Source: Nitrospira sp.
GTDB taxonomy: Bacteria > Nitrospirota > Nitrospiria > Nitrospirales > Nitrospiraceae
DNA: 46,509 nucleotides
NCBI GenBank assembly: GCA_019636815.1
Contig: JAHBWT010000026.1
Span: 1-46,509, forward strand
Direction: 5' to 3'
Within the stretch, counting starts at the first letter, position 1. Every line of letters starts with the position of its first letter. Shown here piece after piece: positions 1 to 30,451 of this stretch. Below the pieces are notes generated by a model. That model was not told the origin of the DNA, ran no database searches, and was given only the letters and a program-made list of their open reading frames with translations. The position numbers and the translations under genes were made by a program.

Positions 1-1830
1 CAAGAATGGTTCATGATCACAGGCACCGTTCATCTGCTCTCGATCTCCGGCTCACATCTCGGCCTGGTCGCGGTGGTGTTTTTTGGGGTGGTGAAACGAG
101 TCGTCCTATGGCTTCCCGCTTCATTCTTGCTGACCGTGTCACGGCGCATCACCCCTTCGCAAATTGCCATTCTCTTCACCTGGCCGGCTGTCGCACTGTA
201 CGCACTGTTGGCAGGGGCCGAAATAGCGACGATACGCTCGCTTGTCATGATTACCTTAGGAATGGCGGCTGTCTGGATCGGGCACGAACGCTATCTTGGG
301 CACGCAATGGCGGCGGCTCTTCTCATCATCGTGTTGCACGATCCTCGAGCGATCTTTGATATTTCGTTTCAGCTCTCTTTTCTATTCGTGCTCGCCATCA
401 TCAGTCTGCTGTCTCAAACAAGGGCCGAGCGCGATAGCAACGCGGATCTCCGTCGGCGTCTCCACCACCGCATCATAGCCCATGTCCTCAATGCCCTCTT
501 GATGAGTGGAGCTGTGACATTGGCGACCCTTCCCTTGGTCGCCTTCTATTTCAATCAAGTTCCATGGATGGGGGTGATTACGAACCTCGTGGCTGTCCCT
601 TTTACCGGTATTGTATTGGTGCCGCTGGGGTTGCTGGCTGCGCTATGGACAATCCTGACGGGCGGAGACTCCTTGATAATGGGAGAAGTCCTGGAGCATT
701 TGTTTTACTGGATGGTATCAGGGCTTCGGTGGTGCGCCAGCATTCCCGGTGGAGAGTGGTATGTCGCGGCACCATCAATTCTTATGATGATACTATTTTA
801 TTCGGGCGTCCTGCTCTCCGGCATCCATGGGGTGCCGCGTCGTTTTCAAATCACGGGTGCCGGCATGATGATGGTGCTGCTCGCGTGGTGGTTAGTCGCT
901 CCAGGCTTGCCCGGAGGCGGTGACCGGTGGCGCGTCACGTTTCTCGATGTCGGACAAGGAGATAGCGCCGTCATCGAACTACCCGATGGCAGGACCGTAC
1001 TGATCGACGGCGGAACGCGCCACAAACGGTTTGATATAGGCAGAAGGGTGGTCGCGCCGTTTCTGTGGAATCGAGGGATCCGCCGTGTCGATCTTGTCAT
1101 TGGGACACATCAGCAACTGGATCACGTCGGCGGACTGATTTGGATTCTCCGTCACATGCCCGTCGGACAGTTTTGGGGCGGAGGCATCGCTCGGCCCGAG
1201 CAATTCGCCCGCGACCTTCAATCCGTGCTTCACTTTCGTGGAATCGAAGAACACGTTGCAACCATCGGCCAAGACCTGCTGCATTCCGGCCCCTGTCAGT
1301 TGACGATTCTCAACCCGCCCGAACAGTCCCCGGGGCGTGATGAAGTCCAGCTCCAAAGCGGAACCTCGTTGAATAACCATTCCATCGTGTCAAGGCTTCA
1401 ATGCGGTGCTCACTCGATCTTGTTCGCTGCCGACATTGAAGCCGGTGGATTGAGTCGGTTGACGATAGACGGCCGCCGTCCCGTGACAGTATTGAAGGTG
1501 CCCCATCATGGAGCACGCAGTTCCCTGGATCGGGAGTGGATCCGCCAACTCAACCCACAGTATGCAATCATCTCGGTCGGGGCCGGTAACCCATATGGGC
1601 ATCCCGGGCAGTCAGTGCTTCAAGCGTATAAGGATCAAGAAACCGCAGTCTATCGTACTGACCTTGACGGAGCAGTTTTGGTCACTGGACGACTCTCCAC
1701 CTCTGCGTTCACCGTAGAACGTATGCGTGATCTCGTGATGGAACCCGTCGATCTGCTCAACTGCCCATGGCAATGTGAACACGACAACTGGCACCGGCTC
1801 TTCGTCTCGTTCAGCGGTCGCTCTCGATAA
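1..1830 (+). CDS. comEC: ComEC/Rec2 DNA uptake channel, 5'-truncated by window start
   Basis: Inner-membrane channel protein that moves single-stranded DNA into the cytoplasm during transformation. The reading frame is open from base 1, so the N-terminal part lies outside the window. The visible part starts inside the competence domain ([12 protein letters not shown], typical of the family) and has many hydrophobic segments. It ends in a metallo-beta-lactamase-like domain. Counting from the first visible Met at 13, LDVGQGDS is at about 311-318 followed by VLIDGG, the HxxxxH-type motif HQQLDH is at 366-371, and PHHGARSS is near 497-504. This two-domain order is that of full-length ComEC. The Zn-site residues look largely kept. 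mtnA follows 41 bp downstream on the same strand. Family assignment is secure; transformation competence of the host is not shown. Confidence 0.93.
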
Positions 1831-1871
1831 AGACTTGCACTCTTCCTCCGTTCCCGCTAGAAGATCTCTCC

Positions 1872-2903
1872 ATGGTTCCCACGGTGGAATGGAAAAACGG
1901 CGCGGTCCGTTTGCTCGACCAAAGCAAACTTCCCGGATCGATAGAGTTCCTTGATTGCCGCGACTATCAGACTGTGGCGGATGCGATTCGTACGTTGAAG
2001 GTTCGAGGGGCCCCGGCGATCGGAGTCACGGCAGCGATGGGGGTCGCGTTGGGGGCAGAAAAAATCGACGCGAGTGACTATCCGACCTTTTCGCGAGCAG
2101 TACTCAAAATCTGTGATGAGCTGGCGGCGACCAGGCCGACCGCTGTGAATCTCTTCTGGGCGATTGAACGGATGAGACAGAAACTCGAATCACTGCGGGA
2201 TTATCCGATCCCATTCATAAAAAATGCGCTCATCGACGAATCTCAAGTAATACTCGAAGAAGACATCGCGCTCTGTAAAACCATGGGGCGGCATGGCGCA
2301 GAATTGATCCATGACGGGGAGACGGTTTTAACTCATTGCAATGCCGGTTCACTCGCGACGGCAGGCTATGGAACCGCACTCGGAGTCATCCGTGCTGCAT
2401 GGGAACAAGGCAAGAAAATCAACGTCATTGCCGATGAAACTCGCCCTGTTCTTCAAGGTTCTCGCCTCACTGCATGGGAGCTCATGCAGGACAAGATACC
2501 AGTCACACTCATAACGGACAACATGGCCGGTTCGCTCATGAGACAGGGGAGAATTCACCTCTGCGTCGTCGGAGCGGATCGAATTGCCGCAAACGGAGAT
2601 GTGGCCAATAAGATCGGCACCTATTCCGTGGCGGTCTTAGCGAGGGCTCACAATATTCCCTTCTATGTCGCGGCTCCCTATTCCACCATCGACCTCAAAA
2701 CAAAATCGGGAGACGAGATTCCGATCGAGCAGCGAAATGCCTTAGAAGTGACAACCATCCACGGCAGCCATCCGGTCGCCCCCAAAGATGTGGCGGTCTA
2801 TAACCCGGCCTTTGACGTGACACCGGCCGAACTCATTACCGGCATTATCACCGAGCGCGGGGTTTTTAAACCGGATGAGCTTGCGGCACAGTTTCGATCC
2901 TGA
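1872..2903 (+). CDS. mtnA: S-methyl-5-thioribose-1-phosphate isomerase
   Basis: Isomerises methylthioribose-1-phosphate to methylthioribulose-1-phosphate in the methionine salvage pathway; a cytoplasmic enzyme of the eIF2B-like fold. The 343-aa length is normal for MtnA. Diagnostic motifs are present: [13 protein letters not shown] (46-58), the catalytic Cys in [12 protein letters not shown] (C156), [14 protein letters not shown], and the catalytic Asp in [10 protein letters not shown] (D236). The ATG at 1872 gives the usual family N-terminus, although no strong ribosome binding site is visible. No other methionine salvage gene is seen in the window, so the rest of the pathway must be elsewhere or absent. 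Confidence 0.96.
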
Positions 2904-3564
2904 TAGGGGAAGCTCGTCTTGCAACGCAAAGGGTGCGTCAGGGACGGTTCGACACGCGTTCCTCGCGCGCCACATCCCGAATCATCGGTTTTCGATCCGG
3001 TGAGTTTGATCAGGGACACGTGGGAGGGTCCGGTGCGGAGGGTGTTTTTCCCAAGAGACTCCGGCTCCGTTTCTCGTGAACGTCAAAGCGGTACGGTTCT
3101 TGGCGCCCCCCGAATATAGGACGGCGAAAACAATCCGGTCCGGATACTGAACTCATCGGTCATGGCCTCGCAGTGGACGGTCAGGGACAGGGGGCCGGCC
3201 TGCAGGTCGGTGATTTTTTGACGCGGATCGGACTTGTTCGCAAATGGCGCCTTCCTGTACGGTGCTGGGCTGCCCAGGGATACGATCCTGTCCGGGAGTG
3301 CCACGGAAAACAATACCACTTTCGGTTTCGTCGAAATGAATCCGTCGGGTGCTGCAAGAGGTCATAGCAGGATCGGGCTGGCCTTGGGGGTGCCGAACAG
3401 AGGCTCCGTTTTTGACCAGTATATGACCGATTTGTGAGGATCTGTCTCCGAATTGAGCGTATCCAGCTCGGCGTGATTAAGCCTTGCACCGGCCAGGTCC
3501 GGCGGGACTGCCGGTCGAAGAATTCGTCCTTGCTCATCAGGTCATTGATGACATCAAAAGCATA
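2904..3564. other. Gene-poor stretch between mtnA and the IS element
   Basis: About 660 bases with no convincing gene. Several short open frames on both strands overlap each other, none has a recognisable domain, and none has a good start signal. A plus-strand frame ending near 3437 has a protein-like composition (for example TTFGFVEMNPSG) and could be the remains of a gene, but I cannot name it. The stretch directly borders an insertion sequence, which fits a decayed region. Confidence 0.5.
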
Positions 3565-3580
3565 GGGGCTGTCGTAGATA
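3565..3580 (+). repeat. Left terminal inverted repeat of the IS1595-family element
   Basis: GGGGCTGTCGTAGATA matches the reverse complement of 4260-4275 at 15 of 16 positions. It lies 40 bp upstream of the likely original transposase start codon. Confidence 0.8.
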
Positions 3581-3604
3581 ACGGAAGTTATTTAGGATGG
3601 CGGG

Positions 3605-4256
3605 ATGTCGCGAAGGCGTTGTCGATTAAGCAAGAAAATGCAGTTTGAGGTTGTGCGAGTGCTTTGTACTCGAGACGACGGCGCGAGCCGCCGCCGATTT
3701 GCTCGGTGTGCAGGCAAATACGGCAGCCCTCTTTTATCACAAACTTAGATGGCTGATTGCTAGCAAGATGGCTGAGAGTGAGCCGGAGCTTGGTGTGTTT
3801 GAATGCGACGAAAGCTATTTCGGTGGTGTCCGTAAAGGGAAGCGCGGCCGCGGGGCGGCTGGTAAAGTGTGCGTGTTCGGCATTCTGAAACGTGGCGGCA
3901 AGGTATACGCGCTTCCCATTGCTGACGCCAGCAGCAACACCTTGCTGACAGCCTTACCGACGAAGGTGTTAGCGGATTCCGTCGTCTCTACCGACCGCGT
4001 GCCCAGCGACAACATTCTCGACATTGCGGGCTTCAAGCATCGCCGGGTCAACCACAGCAAAACTTTTGTCAGTCGGCGCGACCATCACATCAATGGGATT
4101 GAAACCTTTTGGAATCAATCCAAGCGGGTACTCCGCAAATACAATGGCATCCCGCGCAAACACTTCTTCCTGTTCCTGAAAGAGTGTGAGTTCCGGTTTA
4201 ATTATGGTTCCCCCAACCAGCAACTTGCTCAGCTTCGCAAATGGGCTAAACTCTGA
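3605..4256 (+). pseudogene. IS1595-family transposase, frameshifted near its N-terminus
   Basis: DDE-type transposase of the ISXO2/IS1595 group. The C-terminal frame (3645-4256) has FECDESYFGG (first Asp), a second Asp in VVSTDRVPSDN, and the Glu in HHINGIETFWNQSKR, followed by the usual EFRFNYG end. The natural N-terminus is in another frame: ATG at 3605 reads MSRRRCRLSKKMQFEVVR, and the sequence then continues as CFVLETTARAAADLLGVQ in the frame of the catalytic domain. The switch lies at about 3655-3662 and needs +1 or -2 bases. The rest of the gene is intact. It could be an inactivated copy, a sequencing error, or (less likely) programmed frameshifting, since no slippery run is visible at the joint. 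Confidence 0.85.
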
Positions 4257-6412: not shown

Positions 6413-6952
6413 GTGCCGAAACTTATTAACGTTCATCAGCCACAGCACACGACGCAACAGGCTCTGGAGTATGTGAAGGTGCACATACTCATGCCGTCCG
6501 GTTTTCTCGGCCTGATTTGTTTGATCGGTGGAGTCGGAGGATTAGGCTATCAGTGGTTTGCGACCGACACCTATACGTGGGATACGTTTTATCAGAGTTC
6601 CGGGTTATTTCTGTCAGGTATCGGATTGGGAGCTGGGCATACGCTGTACCAGCGATATCTGTTCCGTGAATTCCCGGAGGTTTGGGCGGCACGAATGAAA
6701 CACCGTTTGGAGAGAATGAAAGGGAGGCTGAAGAAGAAATCGGAACCCGCGGATTTTGACCATCCCGGTCGGCAGGTGGTTCCGTTCGCCTATATCGCAG
6801 GCATCACCCTTCTGGTGGGGAGCGCCATTGCCGCAGTCGCCTACGGACACGTTCACATCGTTCCTGCGCTTTTTCTGCCCTGGGCCGGGTATTATTGGGC
6901 ACGACTGATATTATGGCGGAAGGTGATCACGGTCCCAAAAGTGAAGGCATGA
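6413..6952 (+). CDS. Small membrane protein of unknown function
   Basis: About 179 aa, function not recognised. The frame is open further upstream, but GTG 6413 is preferred because GAAGGGAG lies just before it (6401-6408) and a TATAAT promoter lies ~50 bp upstream. The protein has two hydrophobic pairs: one around MPSGFLGLICLIGGVGGLG plus SSGLFLSGIGLGAG in the first half, and one around IAGITLLVGSAIAAVAYG plus VPALFLPWAGYYWARLIL near the end. A basic loop (HRLERMKGRLKKK) lies between them, so about four membrane segments with a positive cytoplasmic loop are likely. It ends 6 bp before the convergent lpxD stop. Confidence 0.7.
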   Translation: MPKLINVHQPQHTTQQALEYVKVHILMPSGFLGLICLIGGVGGLGYQWFATDTYTWDTFYQSSGLFLSGIGLGAGHTLYQRYLFREFPEVWAARMKHRLERMKGRLKKKSEPADFDHPGRQVVPFAYIAGITLLVGSAIAAVAYGHVHIVPALFLPWAGYYWARLILWRKVITVPKVKA

Positions 6953-6958
6953 GAGATC

Positions 6959-8059
6959 TTATCTCTTTTTCGGGCGAGTCCCCCGCGGTCGAGACGGTCG
7001 TTCAGGGATCTTTTGCAGACGCGCTTCGAGCGTCATTACACGCGCTTCCAAATCCCGCACGAGCTGCTTCAACTCAGGCAGCTGAAAAATGACTCCCTGT
7101 ATTTTGAACGCTTTTTCACGCGGCATCGCAGGAATCCCTCCGACAATCTGATTGGATTCGATGCTGCGATTGACCCCGGCCTTCGCCGCAATCAGCACTT
7201 GATCACCGATGGTCAGATGATCGGAAAGACCGGCTTGGCCACCGATCATCACATGACGGCCGATCGTCGTGCTGCCGGCAATACCGACCTGTGCGACAAG
7301 AATGCAGTGCTCTCCCACGGTCACGTTGTGGGCGATTTGAACCAGATTGTCCACCTTCGTGCCTTGCTTGACCAACGTCCGTCCGAATGTGGCTCGGTCG
7401 ATCGTGACGTTGGCTCCCAGCTCAACGTCGTCCTCGATGGTGACGCCTCCGAGTTGAGGAATTTTGTGATGACGGCCTTGATGCTGGACATACCCGAACC
7501 CATCGGCTCCGATGACGGTTCCACTGTGGACGATCACTCGTGCGCCGAGTGAACAGCCCTCACGAACCACCACGTTGGGATATAAGGTGCAATCGTCTCC
7601 GATCGTGACATCGGATCCCAAGAAGACTCCCGGGTAGAGCGTGACCCGATCGCCGATCTTCACCCGATTGCCGAGCGTGACGAAAGGCCAGATGGACGGA
7701 TCGGCTCCCACCCGTACATCGGAACCTTGTGTTACCTGTTCGGCAATGCCGCGGGGAGCCGGAGTAGGAACGAAAAATTTCTGCGCGATGTGCGCGAAGG
7801 CCAGCATTGGATTGTCAACGACGATTTGCGGGACCGCAAGATCCGGCTGGTATCGATGAACCAGCAGCGCCGCGACCGCAAGATTGGCTGCTGCCTTAGC
7901 CATTTTCTCGTTCGTCACAAACGAGAGAGCCTGTGGGGCAGCCTGCCCCAGGCTTGTGAGGCTGACGATCTGCGTCTGGTCGTCGCCATGGATCGTACCG
8001 CCGACAACCTGATGGATCTGAGCCAGTGTGATAGGGGTAGGTCGTTGAGGTGTGCTCAT
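6959..8059 (-). CDS. lpxD: UDP-3-O-acylglucosamine N-acyltransferase
   Basis: Transfers a 3-hydroxyacyl chain from acyl carrier protein to the 2-amino group of UDP-3-O-acylglucosamine, the third step of lipid A synthesis. At 366 aa it is slightly longer than average because of a basic C-terminal tail (RPSRPRGTRPKKR). Family features are an N-terminal uridine-binding domain (about 1-100), a left-handed beta helix of hexapeptide repeats (about 105-330), IGADGFGY (183-190), and the catalytic His in VQIAHNVTVG (H244). Its ATG overlaps the stop of the upstream ACP gene by 4 bp (ATGA), so the two are translationally coupled. It is the last gene of a minus-strand cluster lptF-lptG-KS-ACP-lpxD, which ties acyl supply to LPS assembly. 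Confidence 0.96.
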   Translation of the reverse strand: MSTPQRPTPITLAQIHQVVGGTIHGDDQTQIVSLTSLGQAAPQALSFVTNEKMAKAAANLAVAALLVHRYQPDLAVPQIVVDNPMLAFAHIAQKFFVPTPAPRGIAEQVTQGSDVRVGADPSIWPFVTLGNRVKIGDRVTLYPGVFLGSDVTIGDDCTLYPNVVVREGCSLGARVIVHSGTVIGADGFGYVQHQGRHHKIPQLGGVTIEDDVELGANVTIDRATFGRTLVKQGTKVDNLVQIAHNVTVGEHCILVAQVGIAGSTTIGRHVMIGGQAGLSDHLTIGDQVLIAAKAGVNRSIESNQIVGGIPAMPREKAFKIQGVIFQLPELKQLVRDLEARVMTLEARLQKIPERPSRPRGTRPKKR

Positions 8060-8535
8060 CGGGTTGCGACCTTTTTCTTTGTTTTCGAAGCGGTAGAAGG
8101 CATGGATTTAGGCTTCTTGGCGGAGACGGATGTACGCTTTGTGGATGCTGATTTTGTGGAAGCCGGTTTTTTTGTCGAAGAGGATTTCGCCGATGTCGAC
8201 CTGGATGGAGCGGACTTTTTTGATCCTGACTTGGTGGAGGCTGTCGTCGGCTTGGGTGATTCAGGCTTGGAGATATCGGGAGATTCGGCGAGACGTCGCT
8301 GAACATACGCGGCCACCGAGCCTACCGTACTCAGTCCTGGAAGGTCCTGGTCTGGAATCTGAAGTTTAAATCGCTCTTCAATCTCGAAGAGCAGTTCAAT
8401 GACGGCTACCGAATCGAGCCCCAGATCATCACGCAGATGATGGGCCTCGGTAATTGAGGCAGGGTCTCGTTTGAGATAGCTGGCCAGCGCATGGACAATT
8501 TTTTCAGTGACCTGGGGATCGATCCGTTCAGTCAT
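8056..8535 (-). CDS. Acyl carrier protein with long basic Lys/Ser/Thr/Pro-rich C-terminal tail
   Basis: Residues 1-85 form a normal acyl carrier protein: the phosphopantetheine site is LGLDSVAVIELL with S42, followed by acidic helix EIEERF and DLPGLSTVGSV. This carries acyl chains as thioesters. Residues ~86-159 form a tail built almost only of Lys, Ser, Thr, Pro and Ala (short repeats such as STKKPASTKSAS), like the tails of histone H1-type proteins. Ordinary ACPs are about 80 aa and very acidic, so the tail reverses the overall charge. The frame is a clean single ORF with AAGGAG before the ATG. It sits between a ketosynthase gene and lpxD, which suggests it feeds lipid A acylation. The role of the tail (membrane, nucleic acid or LPS binding) is unknown. 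The primary housekeeping acpP is probably elsewhere. Confidence 0.92.
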   Translation of the reverse strand: MTERIDPQVTEKIVHALASYLKRDPASITEAHHLRDDLGLDSVAVIELLFEIEERFKLQIPDQDLPGLSTVGSVAAYVQRRLAESPDISKPESPKPTTASTKSGSKKSAPSRSTSAKSSSTKKPASTKSASTKRTSVSAKKPKSMPSTASKTKKKVATR

Positions 8536-20359: not shown

Positions 20360-20659
20360 ATGGCGATGCTGAGGATCCGAGAGGCCGTAGCAGGGGAGGG
20401 CTTCACGCTTCGACTGACACTAAGCAACGGTGCTGTCGTGGAACGGGACATTGCCGATCTCCTTACGGGTCCGGTGTTTGAGGAGGTTCGCACAGATCCA
20501 ACGATTCTCCGGCAGGTCAGCGTGGAAGCCGGAACAGTCGTGTGGCCAAACGGTGCCGACCTAGACCCCGATGTCCTCATTTGGGGCGGTCTTCCGCCAA
20601 AGACTCCCGCCAACCCACCGCAAGCACTCACCCTCAAGCTTCCGTCGCTTGTACGATGA
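20360..20659 (+). CDS. DUF2442 domain protein
   Basis: A 99-aa protein. The DUF2442 pattern is clear: LRLTLSNGAVVERDIADLL, GPVFEEVRTDP, then GTVVWPNGADLDPDVLIW. It starts 16 bp after the DUF4160 gene with AGAGGA before the ATG, so the two form an operon. DUF2442 proteins are small soluble partners of DUF4160 proteins; the function is unknown. Repeat R2 follows the stop codon. Confidence 0.88.
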   Translation: MAMLRIREAVAGEGFTLRLTLSNGAVVERDIADLLTGPVFEEVRTDPTILRQVSVEAGTVVWPNGADLDPDVLIWGGLPPKTPANPPQALTLKLPSLVR

Positions 20660-20941: not shown

Positions 20942-23410
20942 GTGGCAGACCTCGACAAGAAATCCCTGAGCGAACGCGACATTTGCACGAAATTCATCAC
21001 GCCCGCCGTCAAGCAGGCGGGATGGGATGAGATGTCACAAATTCGCGAGGAAGTGTACTTCACGAAGGGGAGAATCATTGTCCGCGGTAAACTCGTCACT
21101 CGCGGCAAGGCCAAGTTCGCAGACTACATTCTCTACTACAAGCCGAACATACCCATCGCTCTGATTGAAGCCAAGGATAACAACCACAGCGTCGGTGACG
21201 GTATGCAGCAGGGTCTGGAGTATGCCGCGACGCTTGATATTCCGTTCGTCTTCTCATCGAATGGCGACGCCTTTGTCTTTCATGACAGAACCGGTCAGAG
21301 CGAGAAACGAGAGTCCGAACTCACGCTCAATGCGTTTCCCGCACCAGAGACCCTCTGGCAGAAGTATCGCGCCTGGAAGGGGCTTGCATCCACGCAAGAA
21401 GAAATCGTCTTCCAGAATTACCACGACGATGCGAGCGGCAAGGAGCCTCGCTACTACCAGCGTATTGCAATCAACAAGACAATCGAAGCCATCGCGAAGA
21501 GCCAGAATCGTATCCTCCTCGTCATGGCGACGGGGACAGGCAAGACCTACACCGCCTTTCAAATCATTTGGCGCTTATGGAAAGCCAAGCAAAATAAACG
21601 CATTCTCTACCTGGCTGATCGCAATGTGCTGATCGACCAAACCATGGTCAATGACTTCCGCCCATTTGGGAAAACGATGGCTAAGCTCAGCACCGGCTCC
21701 AAGACGATTGAACGTGAGGACAGTAGCACTGTTGAGCTGCCCCTGGCCGTGGACAAGAAACATCGGCGGATCGATACGTCCTACGAGATCTATCTCGGAC
21801 TTTACCAAGCCATCACGGGGCCGGAGGAAAGCCAGAAGCTCTACCGGGAACTCTCTCGGGATTTTTTCGATCTCATCGTCATCGACGAATGTCATCGCGG
21901 CAGTGCCGCAGAGGATTCCGCCTGGAGAGAGATTCTCGACTACTTCTCCAGCGCCACTCAGATCGGTCTCACGGCCACGCCGAAGGAAACTGAGTACGTC
22001 TCGAACATCCACTACTTCGGCAAGCCGGTGTACAGCTATTCGCTGAAGGAAGGTATCCGCGACGGTTTCCTGGCACCGTATAAAGTGGTGAAAGTTCATT
22101 TGGACGTAGACGTGGAAGGCTACCGTCCGACCAAAGGAGAGATCGACAAATATGGACAGGAGATCGAAGATCGTATCTACAACCAGAAAGATTACGACCG
22201 GAATCTGGTCATCGACGAGCGGACCAAGCGCATAGCCCGAAAAGTGACCGAGTTCTTAAGGGAAAGTGGCGACCGTTTTCAGAAAACCATTGTCTTCTGT
22301 GTGGACGTCGAACACGCCGCACGTATGCGCCAAGCCCTGATTAACGAGAACCACGATCTTGTCCAGCAGAACGAACGCTATGTCATGCGGATTACTGGCG
22401 ATGATGCCGAAGGCTGCGCCCAGCTCGGGAATTTCATCGATCCGGAGGCGAAATATCCGGTGATCGTGACGACTTCACGATTGCTTTCCACTGGGGTGGA
22501 TGCCCAGACCTGCCGCATGATCGTGCTCGACCGCGAAGTCGGCTCCATGACCGAGTTCAAGCAGATCGTCGGGCGCGGGACTCGCGTCCATGAGGACACT
22601 AAGAAGTACTATTTCACGCTCATCGACTTCCGCAAGGCCACCAACCATTTCGCCGACCCCGACTTCGACGGCGAGCCAGTGCAGATCTACGAGCCGGGCG
22701 AAAATGATCCGGTAGCACCGCCGGACGATGTGCTGCCACCGGCTGATGCGGAAGACCCGATCCCACCGATCCCGGACGAGGACGAACGGGTCATGGTCGA
22801 TCCCGATCAGCCGGACATCACAATTCCGCCGGGCGGGACTCAGCCGCGCAAGTACTACATTCATGGTGACGAGGTCAGCGTCATCGCGGAGCGGATCGAG
22901 TATCTCGATGAATACGGCAAGCTCGTCACAGAAACTCTGCGCGACTACTCCAAGAAGAACCTTCGTAAGCGCTATGCCAGCCTCGACGCATTCCGCAAGG
23001 GTTGGAGCAGCGCCGTGCGCAAGCAAGCGATCATTGAGGAACTGGAAAGTGAAGGGGTGATGCTTGAACCATTGGCTGACGAAGTGGGGAGGGATCTCGA
23101 TCCCTTCGATCTGATCTGCCATGTGGCATTCGACCAGCCGCCGCTTACCCGGCAGGAGCGTGTGGAGAATGTTCGCAAGCGGGATGTCTTCACCAAGTAC
23201 GGCAAACAAGCCCGCGCCGTGCTGGAAGCGTTGCTCCAGAAGTATCAGGACGAAGGCGTCACGAGCCTCGACGATCCGCAGATCCTCAAGATTTCGCCAT
23301 TCGATGCTATGGGCACGCCCATTGAATTGTTGAAAACGTTTGGCGGACTGCCCGGCTTTGAAAAGGCCGTCCATGAACTTCAATCCGCGCTGTATCAGAG
23401 AGCTTCTTAA
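20942..23410 (+). CDS. hsdR: Type I restriction-modification system, endonuclease/translocase subunit R
   Basis: ATP-driven motor and nuclease of the HsdR2M2S1 complex; it cuts unmodified foreign DNA after translocation. Length 822 aa. The N-terminal PD-(D/E)XK nuclease has D61 and the E76-A-K78 pair in [10 protein letters not shown]. The SF2 helicase follows, with Walker A MATGTGKT (195-202) and DECH (315-318) in [10 protein letters not shown], then the helicase C domain ([26 protein letters not shown]). The C-terminus is of the EcoEI_R type, after a Pro/Asp-rich linker. The start is GTG 20942 with a weak ribosome site. hsdM follows 3 bp downstream. All catalytic motifs are intact. Confidence 0.96.
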
Positions 23411-23413
23411 GCT

Positions 23414-24862
23414 ATGTCTGTTCGCAACACCGTCAAATCTATTCAAGACATCATGCGCCAGGATAGCGGTGTTGATGGAGATGCCCAGCGCATTTCTCAG
23501 CTCTGCTGGATGTTCTTTCTGAAGATCATCGACGACCAGGACTTTGAACTCGAAGCGATGCAGAAGGACTACCGGTCACCCATCCCGAAGAAGTTCCAGT
23601 GGCGCACCTGGGCTGCTAATCCCGAAGGCATTACCGGCGAACCGCTCATGGCCTTCGTCAATGATGAGCTGTTCCCTTCACTGAAAGAGTTAACCGGTAA
23701 GGATGGTCGCCGCCGGGTCGTGCGCGATGTCTTCGAAGACGCCTACAACTACATGAAGTCCGGCCAGCTCATGCGGCAGGTGATCAACAAGATCAACAGC
23801 GTCGACTTCAACAACCTGACCGAGCGCCAGCATTTCGGTGACATCTACGAACAGATCCTGAACGATCTACAGAGTGCCGGCAACGCGGGCGAGTATTACA
23901 CGCCCCGTGCCGTGACTGCTTTCATGGCGGATCGTATTGATCCACACCCAGGCGAGATTCTCTTCGACCCGGCCTGTGGCACAGGAGGCTTTCTTACTTG
24001 CGCCATCCGGCATATGCGCAATCGCTACGTGAAGAAACCAACCGACAAACAGAAGATGCAGCAGGGGTTGCGCGCCTGCGAGAAGAAGCAGCTCCCGCAC
24101 ATGCTCTGTGTCACGAATATGCTGCTGCATGGCATCGAAGATCCCTCCTTCGTCCGCCACGACAATACGTTGGCTAGGCCCTATATCAGCTATGGCCAAG
24201 CCGACCGTGTAGACATTGTCCTGACCAATCCGCCCTTCGGTGGGAAAGAAGAAGACGGCATCGAAAGCAATTTCCCCAAACACTTTCAGACGCGCGAGAC
24301 GGCGGATTTGTTTCTCGCCCTCATCGTGCGGATGCTCAAAGCGGGTGGGCGCGCCGCGGTCGTCCTACCCGACGGCTCGCTGTTCGGTGAAGGCGTCAAG
24401 ACGCGGCTCAAAGAGCATCTCATGCAGGAGTGCAACCTCCACACGATCGTCCGCCTGCCCAACAGTGTCTTCAAACCCTACGCCAGCATCGGGACGAATC
24501 TGTTGTTCTTCGAGAAGGGCGAGCTGACCAAAGATATCTGGTTCTACGAACATCGCATTCCCGACGGCCAGAAGGCCTACTCGATGACGAAGCCGATCCG
24601 CTTCGAACATCTGAAGCCCTGTATCAACTGGTGGGGCGGAGCGAAACGCAAGGGGCGGAAGGAAACCGAGGTTGCCTGGAAGGTGACGGCCGACGAAGTC
24701 AAAGCCCGTGGCTACAACTTGGACTTTAAGAATCCGCATACCGTCGCCGACGACCACGGCGATCCGGAAGAGCTCTTGCAGAAACTTGAGGCTGCCGAAA
24801 GGGAAACCGCCAACCTCCGCGATCAGCTCAAGGCCATTCTGGAGAAGGCTCTGCTGCGATGA
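23414..24862 (+). CDS. hsdM: Type I restriction-modification system, methyltransferase subunit M
   Basis: N6-adenine DNA methyltransferase subunit that protects host DNA and is also needed for restriction. At 482 aa it has the HsdM N-terminal helical domain (about 1-140), the SAM motif FDPACGTGGF (184-193), and the catalytic NPPF (272-275). The C-terminal coiled segment (LEAAERETANLRDQLKAIL) should contact HsdS. It starts 3 bp after hsdR and overlaps hsdS by 4 bp (ATGA), so the three genes are one operon. Confidence 0.97.
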   Translation: MSVRNTVKSIQDIMRQDSGVDGDAQRISQLCWMFFLKIIDDQDFELEAMQKDYRSPIPKKFQWRTWAANPEGITGEPLMAFVNDELFPSLKELTGKDGRRRVVRDVFEDAYNYMKSGQLMRQVINKINSVDFNNLTERQHFGDIYEQILNDLQSAGNAGEYYTPRAVTAFMADRIDPHPGEILFDPACGTGGFLTCAIRHMRNRYVKKPTDKQKMQQGLRACEKKQLPHMLCVTNMLLHGIEDPSFVRHDNTLARPYISYGQADRVDIVLTNPPFGGKEEDGIESNFPKHFQTRETADLFLALIVRMLKAGGRAAVVLPDGSLFGEGVKTRLKEHLMQECNLHTIVRLPNSVFKPYASIGTNLLFFEKGELTKDIWFYEHRIPDGQKAYSMTKPIRFEHLKPCINWWGGAKRKGRKETEVAWKVTADEVKARGYNLDFKNPHTVADDHGDPEELLQKLEAAERETANLRDQLKAILEKALLR

Positions 24863-26592
24863 ATACGGCGCAACTCCTTTCTTGCTTTGACCGCATTAGT
24901 GAGGCATCCGACGCCATCCCGCGCCTGCGCCGTTTCATCCTTGACCTTGCCGTGCGGGGAAAGCTGGTAGAGCAAGATCCCAGAGACGAACCAGCATCAG
25001 AACTGCTCAAGCGGATTCAGGCGGAGAAAGAACGGCTTGTGAAAACGGGTGAAATTAGAAGGCAGGAACCAGCACGTCCAATTGACGAGCAAGAAGTGCC
25101 GTTCGAAATCCCGCCTGGTTGGTGCTTGGTGCGTTTGATCGATGTGCTGACCAAACTCACCGACGGGACACACCATTCCCCCACAAACCTGGCAGACGGC
25201 GACTTCAAATACATCACGGCAAAGAACATAAAGCCTGAAGGCGTATCGCTCGCAGACGTCTCTTATGTGACAGCCAAGGTTCATCATGAGATCTACGCGC
25301 GGTGTAATCCCGAGAAGGGGGATATCCTTTACATTAAGGACGGAGCCACAACCGGTATTGTGGCAATTAATGATCTCGATGAACCATTCAGCATGTTATC
25401 CAGCGTTGCGCTGTTGAAGCTATCGCTCCATGTTTACAACCGTCTCATAGTTGAGTTTCTACGGTCCCCTTTCTTCTATATGCAAATGCGCGGTTTGATG
25501 AAGGGAGCGGCAATCACTCGAGTTACGCTAAAGCGAATGGCTCCGGCACTTATTCCTCTTCCTCCGCTGGCTGAACAACACCGCATCGTCGCCAAGGTAG
25601 ATGAATTGATGGCGCTCTGTGATCGGCTGGAGGTGGCGCAGGCAGAGCGGGAGAGCCGGCGAGATCGACTGGTGTCGTCGTCGTTGAATCGCTTGAACAA
25701 TGGCGCAGACCTCGACGCCTTCCCCAAGTACGCCCGCTTTTACTTGAACCACCTCCCACGACTCACCACGAGCCTCGAACACATCCAGCAACTTCGCCAG
25801 ACCATCCTCAACCTCGCCGTCCGAGGGAAGCTCGTTCCTCAAGACCCCAATGACGAACCCGCTTCTGAACTGCTGAAACGTATTCAGGAAGAAAAGGCGA
25901 GGTTAGTGAACGCAGGCATTCTAACTCAGCAGAAGCTGACAACCAGTGCACCAAAAGAACTCGCATTTGACTGTCCGATGAACTGGGTGGCAGTGGACTT
26001 TAACGACGGCTGCAATCTTGTCACGAGTGGCTCGCGCGGCTGGGCGGAGTTCTATTCCGACTCCGGGCCGAAGTTCATTCGTGCCCAGAACATCCGATTT
26101 GGACGACTTCGGCTTGATGATCTTGCCTGCGTCAGGCTACCCAAGAAGGCAGAAGGAACTCGAACTCAAGTTTCTAAAGGTGATCTGTTGATCGTCATCA
26201 CCGGTGCCGGCGTCACGAATCCAGCGTTGTTGGATCGTGAACTAGGCGAGGCATATGTTAGCCAACATGTTGCTCTGATTAAGCCCATAACAAGAAGTCT
26301 TTCTCGTTGGCTTCTCATTTGCCTGATGGCACCAGCCGGAGTGCGATCAGAATTAGTTGAGCGTGCCTACGGTGCAGGAAAACCGGGGCTAAATCTTGAC
26401 AATATTCGTTCTTTGAGAATCGCTCTCCCACCTCTCGCCGAACAGCACCGCATCGTCGCCAAAGTCGAAGAACTGATGGCCTTGTGCGACCGGCTAGAAG
26501 CGCAGCTCACCACCACCCAAACCGAAAGCCGTCGCCTCCTCGAAGCTGTATTGCATGAGGCAATGACCCCGACACTGAAGGAAGCAGGATGA
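24859..26592 (+). CDS. hsdS: Type I restriction-modification system, specificity subunit S
   Basis: DNA-recognition subunit that sets the bipartite target of the type I complex. The 577-aa chain has an internal duplication: each half has a conserved region (FILDLAVRGKLVEQDP and TILNLAVRGKLVPQDP, then EPASELLKRIQ), a variable target recognition domain, and a second conserved block (PPLAEQHRIVAKVDELMALC and PPLAEQHRIVAKVEELMALC). The two variable domains differ, so they should recognise two different half-sites. The target sequence cannot be read from the protein. The gene is intact and overlaps hsdM by 4 bp. Confidence 0.96.
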   Translation: MNTAQLLSCFDRISEASDAIPRLRRFILDLAVRGKLVEQDPRDEPASELLKRIQAEKERLVKTGEIRRQEPARPIDEQEVPFEIPPGWCLVRLIDVLTKLTDGTHHSPTNLADGDFKYITAKNIKPEGVSLADVSYVTAKVHHEIYARCNPEKGDILYIKDGATTGIVAINDLDEPFSMLSSVALLKLSLHVYNRLIVEFLRSPFFYMQMRGLMKGAAITRVTLKRMAPALIPLPPLAEQHRIVAKVDELMALCDRLEVAQAERESRRDRLVSSSLNRLNNGADLDAFPKYARFYLNHLPRLTTSLEHIQQLRQTILNLAVRGKLVPQDPNDEPASELLKRIQEEKARLVNAGILTQQKLTTSAPKELAFDCPMNWVAVDFNDGCNLVTSGSRGWAEFYSDSGPKFIRAQNIRFGRLRLDDLACVRLPKKAEGTRTQVSKGDLLIVITGAGVTNPALLDRELGEAYVSQHVALIKPITRSLSRWLLICLMAPAGVRSELVERAYGAGKPGLNLDNIRSLRIALPPLAEQHRIVAKVEELMALCDRLEAQLTTTQTESRRLLEAVLHEAMTPTLKEAG

Positions 26593-26648
26593 TTGAGAAT
26601 CGTCAAGCCAAGCCCATTTTCATGGCCGAATGACAGGCAGGTGACTGC

Positions 26649-28142
26649 GTGACAGGGAAGAACGGCAAGCCAGGTGTCGACGCACGTATCTATTTCACAG
26701 ACTTTTTCGATGTCAGTGAAAATACGCTTGAGAGTTACGGTGCGTTCAACGTCTCGCTGATTAACGACCTACCCTTATTTATTGATCCCTTCTTGCTCTT
26801 TGATAGCGAAGAAGAGAAGTACAAATCATTACATGACGAGATCATCCGTTATGTGAAGTTCCTGCGGGATGTTTCCATCGAAACCTCTATCAGCAGGGGG
26901 TTAGTAGACTATTGGTTCCGTTTTCCTGAGGTAAGTCAGAACTGGCTTGGCTTCAGTCGAAAGGGGAATAGAGGAAGTGGGCTTGGGGCTGACTTCGCAA
27001 GCGTTTTGCATCATAACCTGCACCGGGTGTTCCGGGATTTTGGATCTGAAAGCATTACACGCGGCAGTCACTTGGAAAAGCTCTGTCTTCTCAGCGGGGG
27101 AGTAGGAAGGGATCACTTAAGTGATTTCACCACTAATCTGATCAAAGGCTATTTACTTGAGTACACGCAGACATTCGCGAGGGAACATGTTGAGCCAAAG
27201 CTACGGCGAACATTTGCGGTCGATAAAGTGAGCTTCGACTACGACACGAGGCGCTGGCGTCGTGGACAGTACGACCTCCCAGTATTCTTGGGTGACTTTG
27301 TACTCCTAACACCGAAGGAAATCCTGACAAAAGATGAGGCATGGATTAATCGGAGCGAACTCTTGGAACAGTTTGAAGAGATTTGCACTTCGGTTCCCGA
27401 CGCCCAGTTACGTGCCCAGGTAAATGAATATTTCTTACGCCGCCTTGCTGAAGAGATGACAGAGCAAGAACGACGTGCTGTGGCCGCGGCGACAGCGGAA
27501 CAATTCCCAGCCGTGCTCGACTACTATATCAAGCATAAAGAGGACACAGGAGAAGAGGCACATAAGGTCAGCAGTCTGAAGGTACGGGAGACCGAAGTCC
27601 AGTTTGGAAAACACATTCGCGATCTTGTCGGAACTCACCTTGTCGGCACTGAATTCTATGAGCTTGGCGATAGCTTCGAGGAAAGCCTCCGTCGGGTTCT
27701 GTTTTTGAAAGACGTGCTCGAAAACAAAGATGGATACCGTGCTTTTTATTTGGACGGAAAACCAATTAAGCGTGAGGCAGACCTGCAGATCATGTACCGG
27801 TTGACGTGGTATGCAACGTCTTATGATGTGAACCGGGAACTAAACAATGGTCGCGGCCCGGTTGATTTTAAAGTGTCAAAAGGTACAGCAAATAAAACGC
27901 TGGTCGAGTTTAAGCTGGCCAGCAATAGCAAGTTGAGACAGAACCTGCAGCACCAGGTAGAGATCTACGAAGCGGCAAACGATACGTCGAAATCGATCAA
28001 GGCGATCATGTATTTTACGGAAACCGAATTTAGTAAGGTTCAGAAGATTTTGAAGGAGCTGAACCTGTTGGAGCGAAGAGATGTTGTGCTGATCGACGCC
28101 AGGGATGACAACAAGCCGTCGGCATCAAATGTTAAAGACTGA
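26649..28142 (+). CDS. Predicted PD-(D/E)XK nuclease-like protein downstream of hsdS
   Basis: A 497-aa protein with no name I can assign. The C-terminal third shows a PD-(D/E)XK-type nuclease core: a helix READLQIMYRLTW, then GPVDFKVS with D406, then LVEFKLAS with E420 and K422, then a Gln-containing helix (LQHQVEIYE). This is the order of the restriction-endonuclease fold. The N-terminal part (YFTDFFDVSENTLESYGAF, LPLFIDPFLLF) looks conserved in style but is not recognised. The start is GTG 26649 with a weak AGGTG upstream. It begins 56 bp after hsdS on the same strand, so it is probably transcribed with the restriction operon. A DNA-targeting defence role is inference from the fold and its neighbours. 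Confidence 0.75.
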   Translation: MTGKNGKPGVDARIYFTDFFDVSENTLESYGAFNVSLINDLPLFIDPFLLFDSEEEKYKSLHDEIIRYVKFLRDVSIETSISRGLVDYWFRFPEVSQNWLGFSRKGNRGSGLGADFASVLHHNLHRVFRDFGSESITRGSHLEKLCLLSGGVGRDHLSDFTTNLIKGYLLEYTQTFAREHVEPKLRRTFAVDKVSFDYDTRRWRRGQYDLPVFLGDFVLLTPKEILTKDEAWINRSELLEQFEEICTSVPDAQLRAQVNEYFLRRLAEEMTEQERRAVAAATAEQFPAVLDYYIKHKEDTGEEAHKVSSLKVRETEVQFGKHIRDLVGTHLVGTEFYELGDSFEESLRRVLFLKDVLENKDGYRAFYLDGKPIKREADLQIMYRLTWYATSYDVNRELNNGRGPVDFKVSKGTANKTLVEFKLASNSKLRQNLQHQVEIYEAANDTSKSIKAIMYFTETEFSKVQKILKELNLLERRDVVLIDARDDNKPSASNVKD

Positions 28143-28601
28143 GGGTTACAACAGGTTTGCTATCGCGGCTATGCCAGCTCTCTCTGGATGACCGGGTGGC
28201 AGAAGGGTGGGGTCTGGCCTTGCAATCGCACAGATTCTGGAAACCAATGACGCGGGAGTGATCTGGAGTGGGCCGGCTTTCCGGCGGGTTTTCTGCCGCC
28301 TGATGCCGGCGTGATTGCGGAGCTCGTTCACGCTATCGTCATTGGTCCCAATCCAGAGAAAATTGCGTCGCGCCTCGTAATCATCCATCCTGGCATGATT
28401 GCCAGGAATCTGGCTCTGTCGCTGCGACGTGGCGCGGTGATGGCGGACTCTGCGGCTGTTGTGGTTTCAGTTCGGCGAGGAATTGCTAAGGGTGAGGTCT
28501 GGTCTTGAATCGTGCATGCCCTTCAACGAGACTCCATTCAATACAACTTATGAGGAAGATAAAAATGTACCGGGAGCCTTTTCCTGACCCTAATTGGTGT
28601 G
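28143..28601. other. Intergenic stretch with two partial repeat copies
   Basis: About 460 bases without a supportable gene. It carries repeat-like copy A near 28206-28230 (GGTCTGGCCTTGCAATCGCA) and direct repeat B at 28491-28535. A 65-codon plus-strand frame inside it has no recognisable domain. Confidence 0.5.
28491..28535 (+). repeat. Direct repeat B, upstream of the HEPN-like gene
   Basis: About 45 bp shared with 29972-30018 in the same orientation, with a few substitutions and a short indel (core GGTCTGGTCTTGAATCGTGC). Together the two copies bracket the gene at 28602-29945. Confidence 0.8.
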
Positions 28602-29945
28602 ATGAGTGAATTAATTCCCGTCGTTTATCGTGCCGACGATGAGAATAGGCTTATCGACCTCGGTACTGCTGACGTCGAAGTGACATGCGATGGGCAGAGC
28701 ATTCAGGGCAATGGGCGAGCGAGAATTTGCCTGCAACCTGAGCTGAGGCTGAGCGTAACAGTTGATTTTGCAGAGCATCGTGGTTTTCAGGTGGGGATGA
28801 CGGAAGGTGAGGTCCGGTTGAAATACGGCGAGGCCACGCTGTGCAATGCGCTTCCGGTCCGGGTGCGAGACTTGTTCTCGGGAAATGGCAAGAGCGAAAT
28901 CGAATTCGTGCCAACGCCACAGAAGATGGCGATGCGTACACATCAGCGACTGCGGCTGGAAACGGCGATCTTCCATATCATGAACTTCCGGGCGTTTCAC
29001 TGTAGAACGGGGCATGCAAGTGTTTTGTTTCAATCGGATCCCAGCAAGGTGCGAAGGCTTGGCCGGGTGCTCCTGGAGCATGACGGATGGGAAATTGAGA
29101 TCCAAGAAGTCCCGGATGCGAGAAGAGTCATAGAAATTTTGAATACAAACGGCGGGAACGGGATTACTCATGTCGGGAAAGTCAGACGAAGGAGCGGCAA
29201 AACTTTCACAATTGATGTGCTCAGACGCACGATGCGTGATCTGCACCTGTTCCTATCCTTTGCGCGAGGCTCGTGGACTCCCGTAATGCTGCCGGTGGGA
29301 TTCGATAAACAGGGGAGCAAGGTATTCAAAGAGTGGGGTGTGCCTCTTGGGGAAGGCTGGAAATCCTGTATGACATGGTTTGATGACCATCACGGCGAGG
29401 CGTTAGCACATCTTTATTCGGGTTTTGTAACACTTCTGCATGATCAGGCGATGGGTGACGCAGTATCACAGGCTTTGTACTGGTATCTGAGGAGCAACAA
29501 GGCCGGAGGCGGTGTCGGCCCAGATGGTGGCCTTATTCTCAGCCAGGCGGCTCTTGAACGGCTGGCCTGTGCATATTTGGCGAAGCACAATCTGCCAACG
29601 AATGGGAAGATGGGAGAAGTTCTTGCGAGAGCTTGTAAGGATATTGGACTTTCAAGGAGCCTTCCGATTCCGAAGAGCTTACGCAAACTTCACAATACAA
29701 ATCGAAGCCTGAAAGGAAAATGGCGGCATGGACTCCATGCGTTGGTGGATATAAGAAACGAGCTGGTTCACCCACAAAATTGGCTAGGTAGGCATAGAGG
29801 AAAAATTATTCCCGAGGCATGGAAGCTGGCGCAATGGTATATCTCCCTAATCATATTACGTCTCTCAGGCTATAACGGCCAATACAGCAATCGCCTGTGT
29901 GCACGCTGGCGTGGCGAGGTCGAGAACGTGCCATGGCAAAGATGA
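28602..29945 (+). CDS. HEPN-motif protein of unknown function, candidate defence RNase
   Basis: A 447-aa protein. ATG 28602 is preferred over GTG 28599; no good ribosome binding site is visible. The C-terminal region is helical and contains HALVDIRNELVHPQNW (Arg ~385), which fits the R-x4-H catalytic motif of HEPN ribonucleases. The N-terminal ~200 residues look beta-rich and are unlike any family I recognise; a middle block (SKVFKEWGVPLGEGW, HLYSGFVTLLHDQAM) leads into the helical part. The general layout, a large N-terminal domain with a C-terminal HEPN domain, is that of abortive-infection proteins such as the ApeA group, but I cannot claim that family. It lies 460 bp after the PD-(D/E)XK gene and is flanked by direct repeats, which suggests a transferable cassette. 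Confidence 0.7.
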   Translation: MSELIPVVYRADDENRLIDLGTADVEVTCDGQSIQGNGRARICLQPELRLSVTVDFAEHRGFQVGMTEGEVRLKYGEATLCNALPVRVRDLFSGNGKSEIEFVPTPQKMAMRTHQRLRLETAIFHIMNFRAFHCRTGHASVLFQSDPSKVRRLGRVLLEHDGWEIEIQEVPDARRVIEILNTNGGNGITHVGKVRRRSGKTFTIDVLRRTMRDLHLFLSFARGSWTPVMLPVGFDKQGSKVFKEWGVPLGEGWKSCMTWFDDHHGEALAHLYSGFVTLLHDQAMGDAVSQALYWYLRSNKAGGGVGPDGGLILSQAALERLACAYLAKHNLPTNGKMGEVLARACKDIGLSRSLPIPKSLRKLHNTNRSLKGKWRHGLHALVDIRNELVHPQNWLGRHRGKIIPEAWKLAQWYISLIILRLSGYNGQYSNRLCARWRGEVENVPWQR

Positions 29946-30256
29946 AGTGACCACAAAAATGTTAGGCGTAATGTGGGGTCTGGTCTTGAATCGTGCCTGC
30001 CCTTCTACGAGACGATACTCCATCAGCTAGGTCGACCCTGTATCCCAACGAAAGCGAAAAGAAGCGACTGCTCGACGCGATGTTGTTGGCTGTGCCAAAA
30101 TAACCTCCTACAGGTGCGGCCTGTGAGGTAGCGATGACGACTCCTGCTGCGAAATGATCCCGATTCAGGGCGCCATTGCCGAGATAGTACGGTGCATTTG
30201 TGGATCGAGAACTTGCCGCAAGCCTCGGTCTACCGGAGCAGGAAGATAAGAAAGCC
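29946..30256. other. Intergenic stretch with repeat C and a possible minus-strand gene fragment
   Basis: About 310 bases. Next to repeat C, the minus strand from about 30220 down to 30025 reads as a protein-like stretch (for example AAGVVIATSQAAPVGGYFG and RFFSLSLGYRVDLADG), whose alternating pattern resembles an outer-membrane beta-barrel strand. It has no proper start and runs into the repeat, so at most it is a gene fragment. Confidence 0.35.
29972..30018 (+). repeat. Direct repeat C, downstream of the HEPN-like gene
   Basis: Second copy of repeat B (core GGTCTGGTCTTGAATCGTGC, then TGCCCTTCTACGAGAC). It lies 26 bp after the stop of the HEPN-like gene. Confidence 0.8.
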
Positions 30257-30451
30257 ATGAAGGTCAAGTATGACGAGGAAGTGGATGTGCTCACAATCGA
30301 ATTGAGCGATGCTTCTGTGGAGGAGAGTGATGAGGACAAACCTGGTGTGATTCTGGACTATGACAAGGAGGGGAACATCGTTGGCATTGAAATTCTCAAC
30401 GCCTCAAAGCGGGTGCAGAATCCGAAATCTGTCGAATACGCTGTTGCCTAA
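30257..30451 (+). CDS. DUF2283 family protein
   Basis: A 64-aa protein beginning MKVKYDEEVDVLTIELSD at ATG 30257, with GGAAGATAAG upstream; a longer frame from 30200 is open but adds unrelated residues. The DUF2283 hallmark GVILDYDKEGNIVGIEILNAS is present. Proteins of this family are often encoded beside small DUF4258 partners in toxin-antitoxin-like pairs, but no partner is found upstream here. Function is unknown. Confidence 0.88.
   Translation: MKVKYDEEVDVLTIELSDASVEESDEDKPGVILDYDKEGNIVGIEILNASKRVQNPKSVEYAVA

Follow-up and report, generated by a model that had tools for sequence, protein, structure and literature searches.

A putative single-gene PD-(D/E)XK defense nuclease with its own recognition half, encoded behind a type I restriction operon of Nitrospira

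The gene that directly follows a type I restriction operon in the stretch of Nitrospira DNA analyzed here (46,509 nucleotides, hereafter the window), and that we named REL, probably encodes a single-gene anti-phage, or anti-mobile-element, DNA nuclease with its own recognition half, independent of a cognate methylase and of the Hsd proteins (Table 1). Computation revealed a gene that is autonomous in its location, modular in its front half, associated with defense genes and equipped with the predicted fold and the residues of a nuclease. The REL family is unnamed: motif and protein libraries offer only phrog_30194 and, remotely, PDC-M36A, and neither PADLOC nor NCBIfam models the family as such. 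No description of it was found in open papers (subscription papers and preprints were outside the scope of this search). If our reading is right, REL represents a widespread unnamed single-gene defense family, one half of which is without a solved structural relative.

Table 1. Positions of REL, its domains and the adjacent type I genes in the window.
Feature	Position	Strand	Description
hsdR	20942..23410	+	822 aa, EcoAI/FtnUII family type I restriction subunit; NF046051 1191 bits; PDLC03049
hsdM	23414..24862	+	482 aa; PF02384 (N6_Mtase) 3e-72; PDLC03025 8e-218
hsdS	24859..26592	+	577 aa, two TRDs; PF01420 (Methylase_S) in two stretches; PDLC03179
hsdS-REL gap	26593..26648	+	56 bp
REL (nuclease gene, named here)	26649..28142	+	497 aa, GTG start; 37-row family alignment
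N-terminal domain of REL	26682..27683	+	residues about 12-345; predicted recognition or sensor half; motif DLPLFIDPFLLF
C-terminal PD-(D/E)XK domain of REL	27684..28139	+	residues 346-497
Catalytic candidates of REL	E397 27837-27839; D406 27864-27866; E420 27906-27908; K422 27912-27914	+	

The initial annotation had described a 497-aa reading frame on the same strand as an intact hsdR-hsdM-hsdS operon, 56 bp past the hsdS stop. Both the reading frame and the intact operon were confirmed: the three upstream genes encode full-length products of an EcoAI-type type I system (Pfam, NCBIfam, and PADLOC), and the match of HsdR to the EcoAI family (NF046051) spans the whole model. The hsdS gene overlaps hsdM by 4 bp, and a consensus scan of the gap between hsdS and REL detected no terminator-like or promoter-like site, which makes it plausible that REL is co-transcribed with the hsd genes of the window. 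REL is present as a single copy in this genome and its product shows no homology to HsdR, HsdM or HsdS by any Pfam, NCBIfam or PADLOC match. We also observed a 14-codon open reading frame (26589-26633, + strand) whose start overlaps the hsdS stop within an ATGA; it shares the frame of REL and terminates at a TGA ahead of the GTG start. REL itself begins at an overlap of this kind in L006, L036 and L037. This short frame could be the relic of an older REL start, or could be due to chance.

Several lines of evidence support the prediction that REL carries a PD-(D/E)XK nuclease domain: invariant residues, predicted topology and structural matches. The pattern from which a nuclease fold had initially been read (D406/E420-x-K422) is by itself no evidence, because D-x(10-16)-E-x-K is present in 70% of composition-preserving shuffles of REL; what sustains the signature is its conservation in homologues and the predicted fold. 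Across 37 aligned homologues from many phyla, residues E397, N399, GRGP401-404, D406, E420 and K422 are invariant. When nine plasmid and viral rows were included, the E, D, E and K were kept in 45 of 46 rows; the C-terminus of L049 is divergent in this larger alignment. The C-terminal tail NKPSASN is also invariant.

The AlphaFold2 model of the full protein (pLDDT 81, pTM 0.80) presents a C-terminal topology of alpha-beta-beta-beta-alpha-beta-alpha-beta, with helices at residues 376-385, 429-443 and 458-470 and strands at 393-396, 407-410, 416-423, 449-455 and 479-483. In this model, D406 immediately precedes strand 407-410 whereas E420 and K422 are inside strand 416-423, which is the layout of PD-(D/E)XK enzymes. 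The conserved D, E and K, preceded by a glutamate at a strand end or close to a helix (E397), are the residues expected of this superfamily. Using VIA-align, residues ~340-490 were matched to BglII (Z 6.2), CdiA-CT (5.7), EcoRV (5.5), Bax1 (5.3), Can2 (5.3), BamHI (5.2), Shedu (4.8) and McrC (4.8), all Z-scores being modest and below 8, the range flagged by VIA-align's own warning. Most of the matches are nucleases of restriction or defense systems, and many are PD-(D/E)XK enzymes, consistent with the invariant residues. Structure prediction and fold search of the full protein, as the initial annotation had proposed, thus gave a predicted PD-(D/E)XK core rather than a fold lacking it. Foldseek searches with the whole model against the PDB and viral libraries gave no match with E <= 0.001, and sequence searches of the PDB with the single protein and with a profile gave nothing credible. 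The sole match of REL in the Pfam and NCBIfam scans is to PDDEXK_9 (PF08011), over the active site and below the curated cut-off (15.3 bits; cut-off 25.5). PDDEXK_9 is the C-terminal nuclease of AAA-ATPase-like proteins, and REL lacks the AAA ATPase part.

The N-terminal ~350 residues had been reported to match nothing, and this statement was nearly right. It stands for solved structures. When residues 1-372 were modelled separately (model m60752043e761; pLDDT 85, pTM 0.85), Foldseek found no solved structure that matches the N-terminal half (best E 0.71), and VIA-align returned mostly short, helical matches with a best Z of 4.4 over 82 residues, although such an absence does not prove a new fold. 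It does not stand for sequence families: the PADLOC profile of PDC-M36A (positions 8-245 of 457) aligns with residues 16-260 at 2e-19, and phrog_30194, a phage protein family without assigned function, matches REL over nearly its full length (residues 14-485; 1.3e-31). Profile comparison with hhalign aligned REL columns 14-349 to full-length PDC-M36A (98.5%).

PDC-M36 is a PADLOC candidate composed of the genes PDC-M36A and PDC-M36B, and we found no open paper that names it. The homology of PDC-M36A to REL covers the N-terminal ~250-310 residues and includes a common motif, D-x-PL-hydrophobic-x-DPFLL. Like REL, PDC-M36A ends in a nuclease-like part (RDLIFYN...E-x-K, read by eye), but the C-terminal nuclease of REL could not be aligned to it. 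In addition, the small partner gene PDC-M36B lies directly 3' of PDC-M36A in L003 and L004 and is absent around REL; in the neighbor clusters, the PDC-M36B cluster (c5) adjoins no close REL homologue. Membership of REL in PDC-M36 was rejected on these grounds, the match being confined to the N-terminal half and PDC-M36B being missing, and PDC-M36A is a relative of REL by its front half. Conversely, the protein of L005 (619-1914) combines a REL-type nuclease domain (hhalign 96%) with an unrelated N-terminal half; this protein also keeps the conserved end, as ...PSASK. Because PDC-M36A shares the front half and L005 only the C-terminal nuclease, we consider the two halves of REL to be recombining modules. 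Both halves are equally conserved in the 37-row alignment. It is possible, if rather doubtful, that the N-terminal ~345 residues form a new sensor fold common to PDC-M36A, which would be plugged into different nuclease modules and would sense one common phage-infection signal. A shared sensor fold that responds to one signal across phages, satellites and R-M operons would imply single-gene immunity that is widespread and relies on a trigger not yet described.

A scan of species genomes identified 40 REL loci across many phyla with 45-73% identity. Members of the family occur in Proteobacteria, Nitrospirota, Verrucomicrobia, Bacteroidota, Actinomycetota and other groups, as well as on phages and satellites. 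The gene is rare: any match was found in 17 of 395 Nitrospirota genomes (about six full-length) and in 3 of the 369 genomes of one class. Matches were also obtained in 21 plasmid records and at seven loci of viral contigs, and tblastn with REL against annotated phages gave no match. We estimated a dN/dS of 0.04-0.08, indicative of purifying selection, in six REL pairs among which hsdS-linked, solo and prophage-type copies are represented; two additional pairs were saturated. Broken copies were observed in L032, L040, L045 and L055; such copies are usual for defense genes.

We then compared the neighborhoods of 41 loci (the window and 40 homologue loci). REL lies directly 3' of hsdS in seven of them (the window, L006, L007, L012, L036, L037 and L042), with a 4-bp overlap between its start and the hsdS stop in L006, L036 and L037, and in L010 it is the last gene of a longer run that contains hsdRMS. 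Adjacency to hsdS was observed in 6 of 36 genomes, against 0.03 expected from the hsdS density of these genomes when loci are treated as independent (P about 8e-13); the value becomes P 3e-4 if island clustering raises the chance 30-fold. Six of the linked or near-linked loci fall within one clade of 11, and the linkage arose in at least three lineages. This recurrent position directly behind hsdS, together with the 4-bp overlaps, speaks for REL as an accessory subunit or helper of type I systems, for instance as an additional nuclease that the HsdRMS complex would recruit. However, most REL homologues are without hsd neighbors, and solo copies were found on P4-like, prophage and myophage contigs. 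The linked systems also differ from one another: HsdM of the window is close to its counterpart in L012 (3e-184) and much less so to those of L010, L036 and L042 (1e-45 to 1e-51), which indicates that these type I systems belong to different families. Finally, REL has remained open in Methylobacter (L007) beside a decayed operon whose hsdS is reduced to a 3' piece with an internal stop; neither hsdM nor hsdR was detected on this 10-kb contig when five sets of Hsd proteins served as tblastn queries. A helper role is therefore quite improbable, and REL as an obligate accessory of type I systems was rejected, being contradicted by the solo loci and by L007. The initial annotation had suggested either an accessory nuclease or an independent defense effector; our results disfavor the former and favor the latter. 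The adjacency to hsdS in at least three lineages could nevertheless reflect a looser functional coupling with type I systems.

Other defense genes were found next to REL. A type III res gene is located 21 bp upstream of REL in L033 and an MmeI-type gene 76 bp upstream in L029, whereas AbiV (L016) and RmrA (L046) adjoin it directly. PDC-S71 adjoins REL in L023 and the SIR2-type PDC-S65 overlaps it in L024. Downstream of REL, L008 carries the DISARM genes DrmA and DrmB, whose clusters are also present in L031. In L012, REL is followed by AbiJ and GmrSD-like genes, and in L042 by a GmrSD-like gene. On two conjugative plasmids of Paenarthrobacter (L048, 1197-8572, and L090), a methyltransferase, a DEAD/DEAH helicase, a GIY-YIG nuclease and a REL homologue form an overlapping operon, possibly an unusual R-M-like system. 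The survey of homologue neighborhoods that had been suggested for this gene thus identified hsdRMS, type III, MmeI, DISARM, GmrSD-like, AbiJ, AbiV, SIR2, RmrA and the P4 psu-int hotspot as recurrent, and the homologues did not prove to lie mostly outside defense neighborhoods. This recurrence supports a defense role for REL. At five loci (L014, L022, L028, L030 and L041), the gene directly upstream of REL is a housekeeping gene (SNF transporter, SelB, ATP-grasp, ACCA and GyrB); these neighbors fit a solo gene, yet they give no positive sign of defense.

Some of these neighbors are of the Abi type (e.g., AbiV, AbiJ and SIR2), which would also fit abortive infection: the N-terminal half would sense a phage protein or the inhibition of the neighboring R-M system and would release a nuclease that destroys both host and phage DNA, following the logic of PrrC but with a DNA-cutting effector. 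The sensor-plus-nuclease layout of REL agrees with such a role, as do the broken copies listed above, which are fairly common, as expected of a costly gene. On the other hand, solo copies without an R-M neighbor cannot be guards of R-M systems, the AlphaFold2 topology and the family scans revealed no NTPase in REL, and no antitoxin-like partner recurs beside it in the neighbor clusters. We consider abortive infection unlikely, although less so than a helper role.

In the P4-like satellite L050, REL (1606-3099) is the sole gene between a P4-type integrase (218-1486) and a Psu-like gene (3478-4050), with a P4-type primase further on. The psu-int interval of P4 is a reservoir of antiviral systems (PMC9122126), and this placement is that of the L050 homologue rather than of the window copy. 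In the prophage-type contigs L051 and L052, REL is located next to genes for terminase or head closure, and in the myophage contig L054 the homologue (6663-8144) separates the tail tube gene from the tail sheath gene, on the opposite strand in each case. L055, which is near-identical to L054, carries a broken copy. Freestanding phage homing endonucleases are inserted between phage genes in the same manner, and the opposite-strand insertion of L054 and the varied insertion sites of REL would be expected of a selfish or homing-type nuclease that spreads itself between genomes and has no part in defense. This explanation is very improbable in view of the strong and repeated association of REL with many unrelated defense genes and with the P4 defense hotspot, of its cargo-like position as the last gene of operons and of an N-terminal half that is as conserved as the nuclease half.

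Our preferred reading remains a direct restriction of foreign DNA by REL. Some feature of foreign DNA or of replicating phage DNA would be recognized by the N-terminal domain or would activate it, and the C-terminal PD-(D/E)XK domain would cut DNA with a metal held by D406, E420 and K422, as the predicted fold and residues suggest. Neither a cognate methylase nor neighboring Hsd proteins would be needed. Solo copies lack a methylase, so that self-protection must lie in the trigger (modification, DNA structure, or a phage factor). The trigger is the least certain step, and our first guess would be a modification-dependent or DNA-structure-dependent cut. REL would spread via islands, satellites, prophages and plasmids and would repeatedly be placed last behind restriction operons, where co-transcription is possible. 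In this position, it would most plausibly cover what R-M misses, by analogy with type IV systems embedded in type I operons.

One such type IV system, encoded within a type I operon, is TgvAB (PMC11411939). It acts against phages that evade type I restriction through modified DNA, R-M and modification-dependent restriction being complementary (PMC11411939). For the position of REL in its operon, TgvAB may be taken as a direct precedent: in the TgvAB/GmrSD family too, extra restriction genes lie within a type I operon or after it. REL differs by the lack of the GmrSD domains DUF262 and DUF1524 (HNH); it has a predicted PD-(D/E)XK nuclease and consists of one protein in solo loci. Neither domain appeared among the Pfam matches with E values of up to 1, and the identification of REL as a GmrSD type IV enzyme was rejected. 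Shedu (SduA) resembles REL in concept, as a single protein with a variable N-terminal half and a PD-(D/E)XK nuclease. The VIA-align score of its nuclease domain against REL is level with that of many PD-(D/E)XK enzymes, and the N-terminal half of REL matches no solved structure. Identity with Shedu by sequence was also rejected, as no Shedu, SduA or DUF4263 match was found in Pfam or PADLOC at E up to 1. Overall, REL would be a PD-(D/E)XK defense nuclease with an undescribed recognition half. Since self-protection appears to lie in the trigger and TgvAB offers a precedent, we ranked direct restriction first, abortive infection second and a type I helper third. If this is correct, restriction operons would serve as docking sites for independent nucleases, and the idea of embedded type IV systems would widen to include PD-(D/E)XK enzymes as well as operons of type I, type III and MmeI type.

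The island of the window may contain a second defense gene. A 448-aa protein is encoded 456 bp 3' of REL (28599-29945, + strand) with a C-terminal RNELVH, a HEPN-like R-x4-H, and presents no Pfam, NCBIfam or PADLOC match. Its homologue on an E. coli plasmid (L091; 28% identity) lies immediately 5' of type I hsdM-hsdS and a DUF262 gene, which suggests that the 448-aa protein may also function in defense. Small DUF2442 and DUF2283 genes are located at 20360-20659 and 30200-30451, one on each side of the island.
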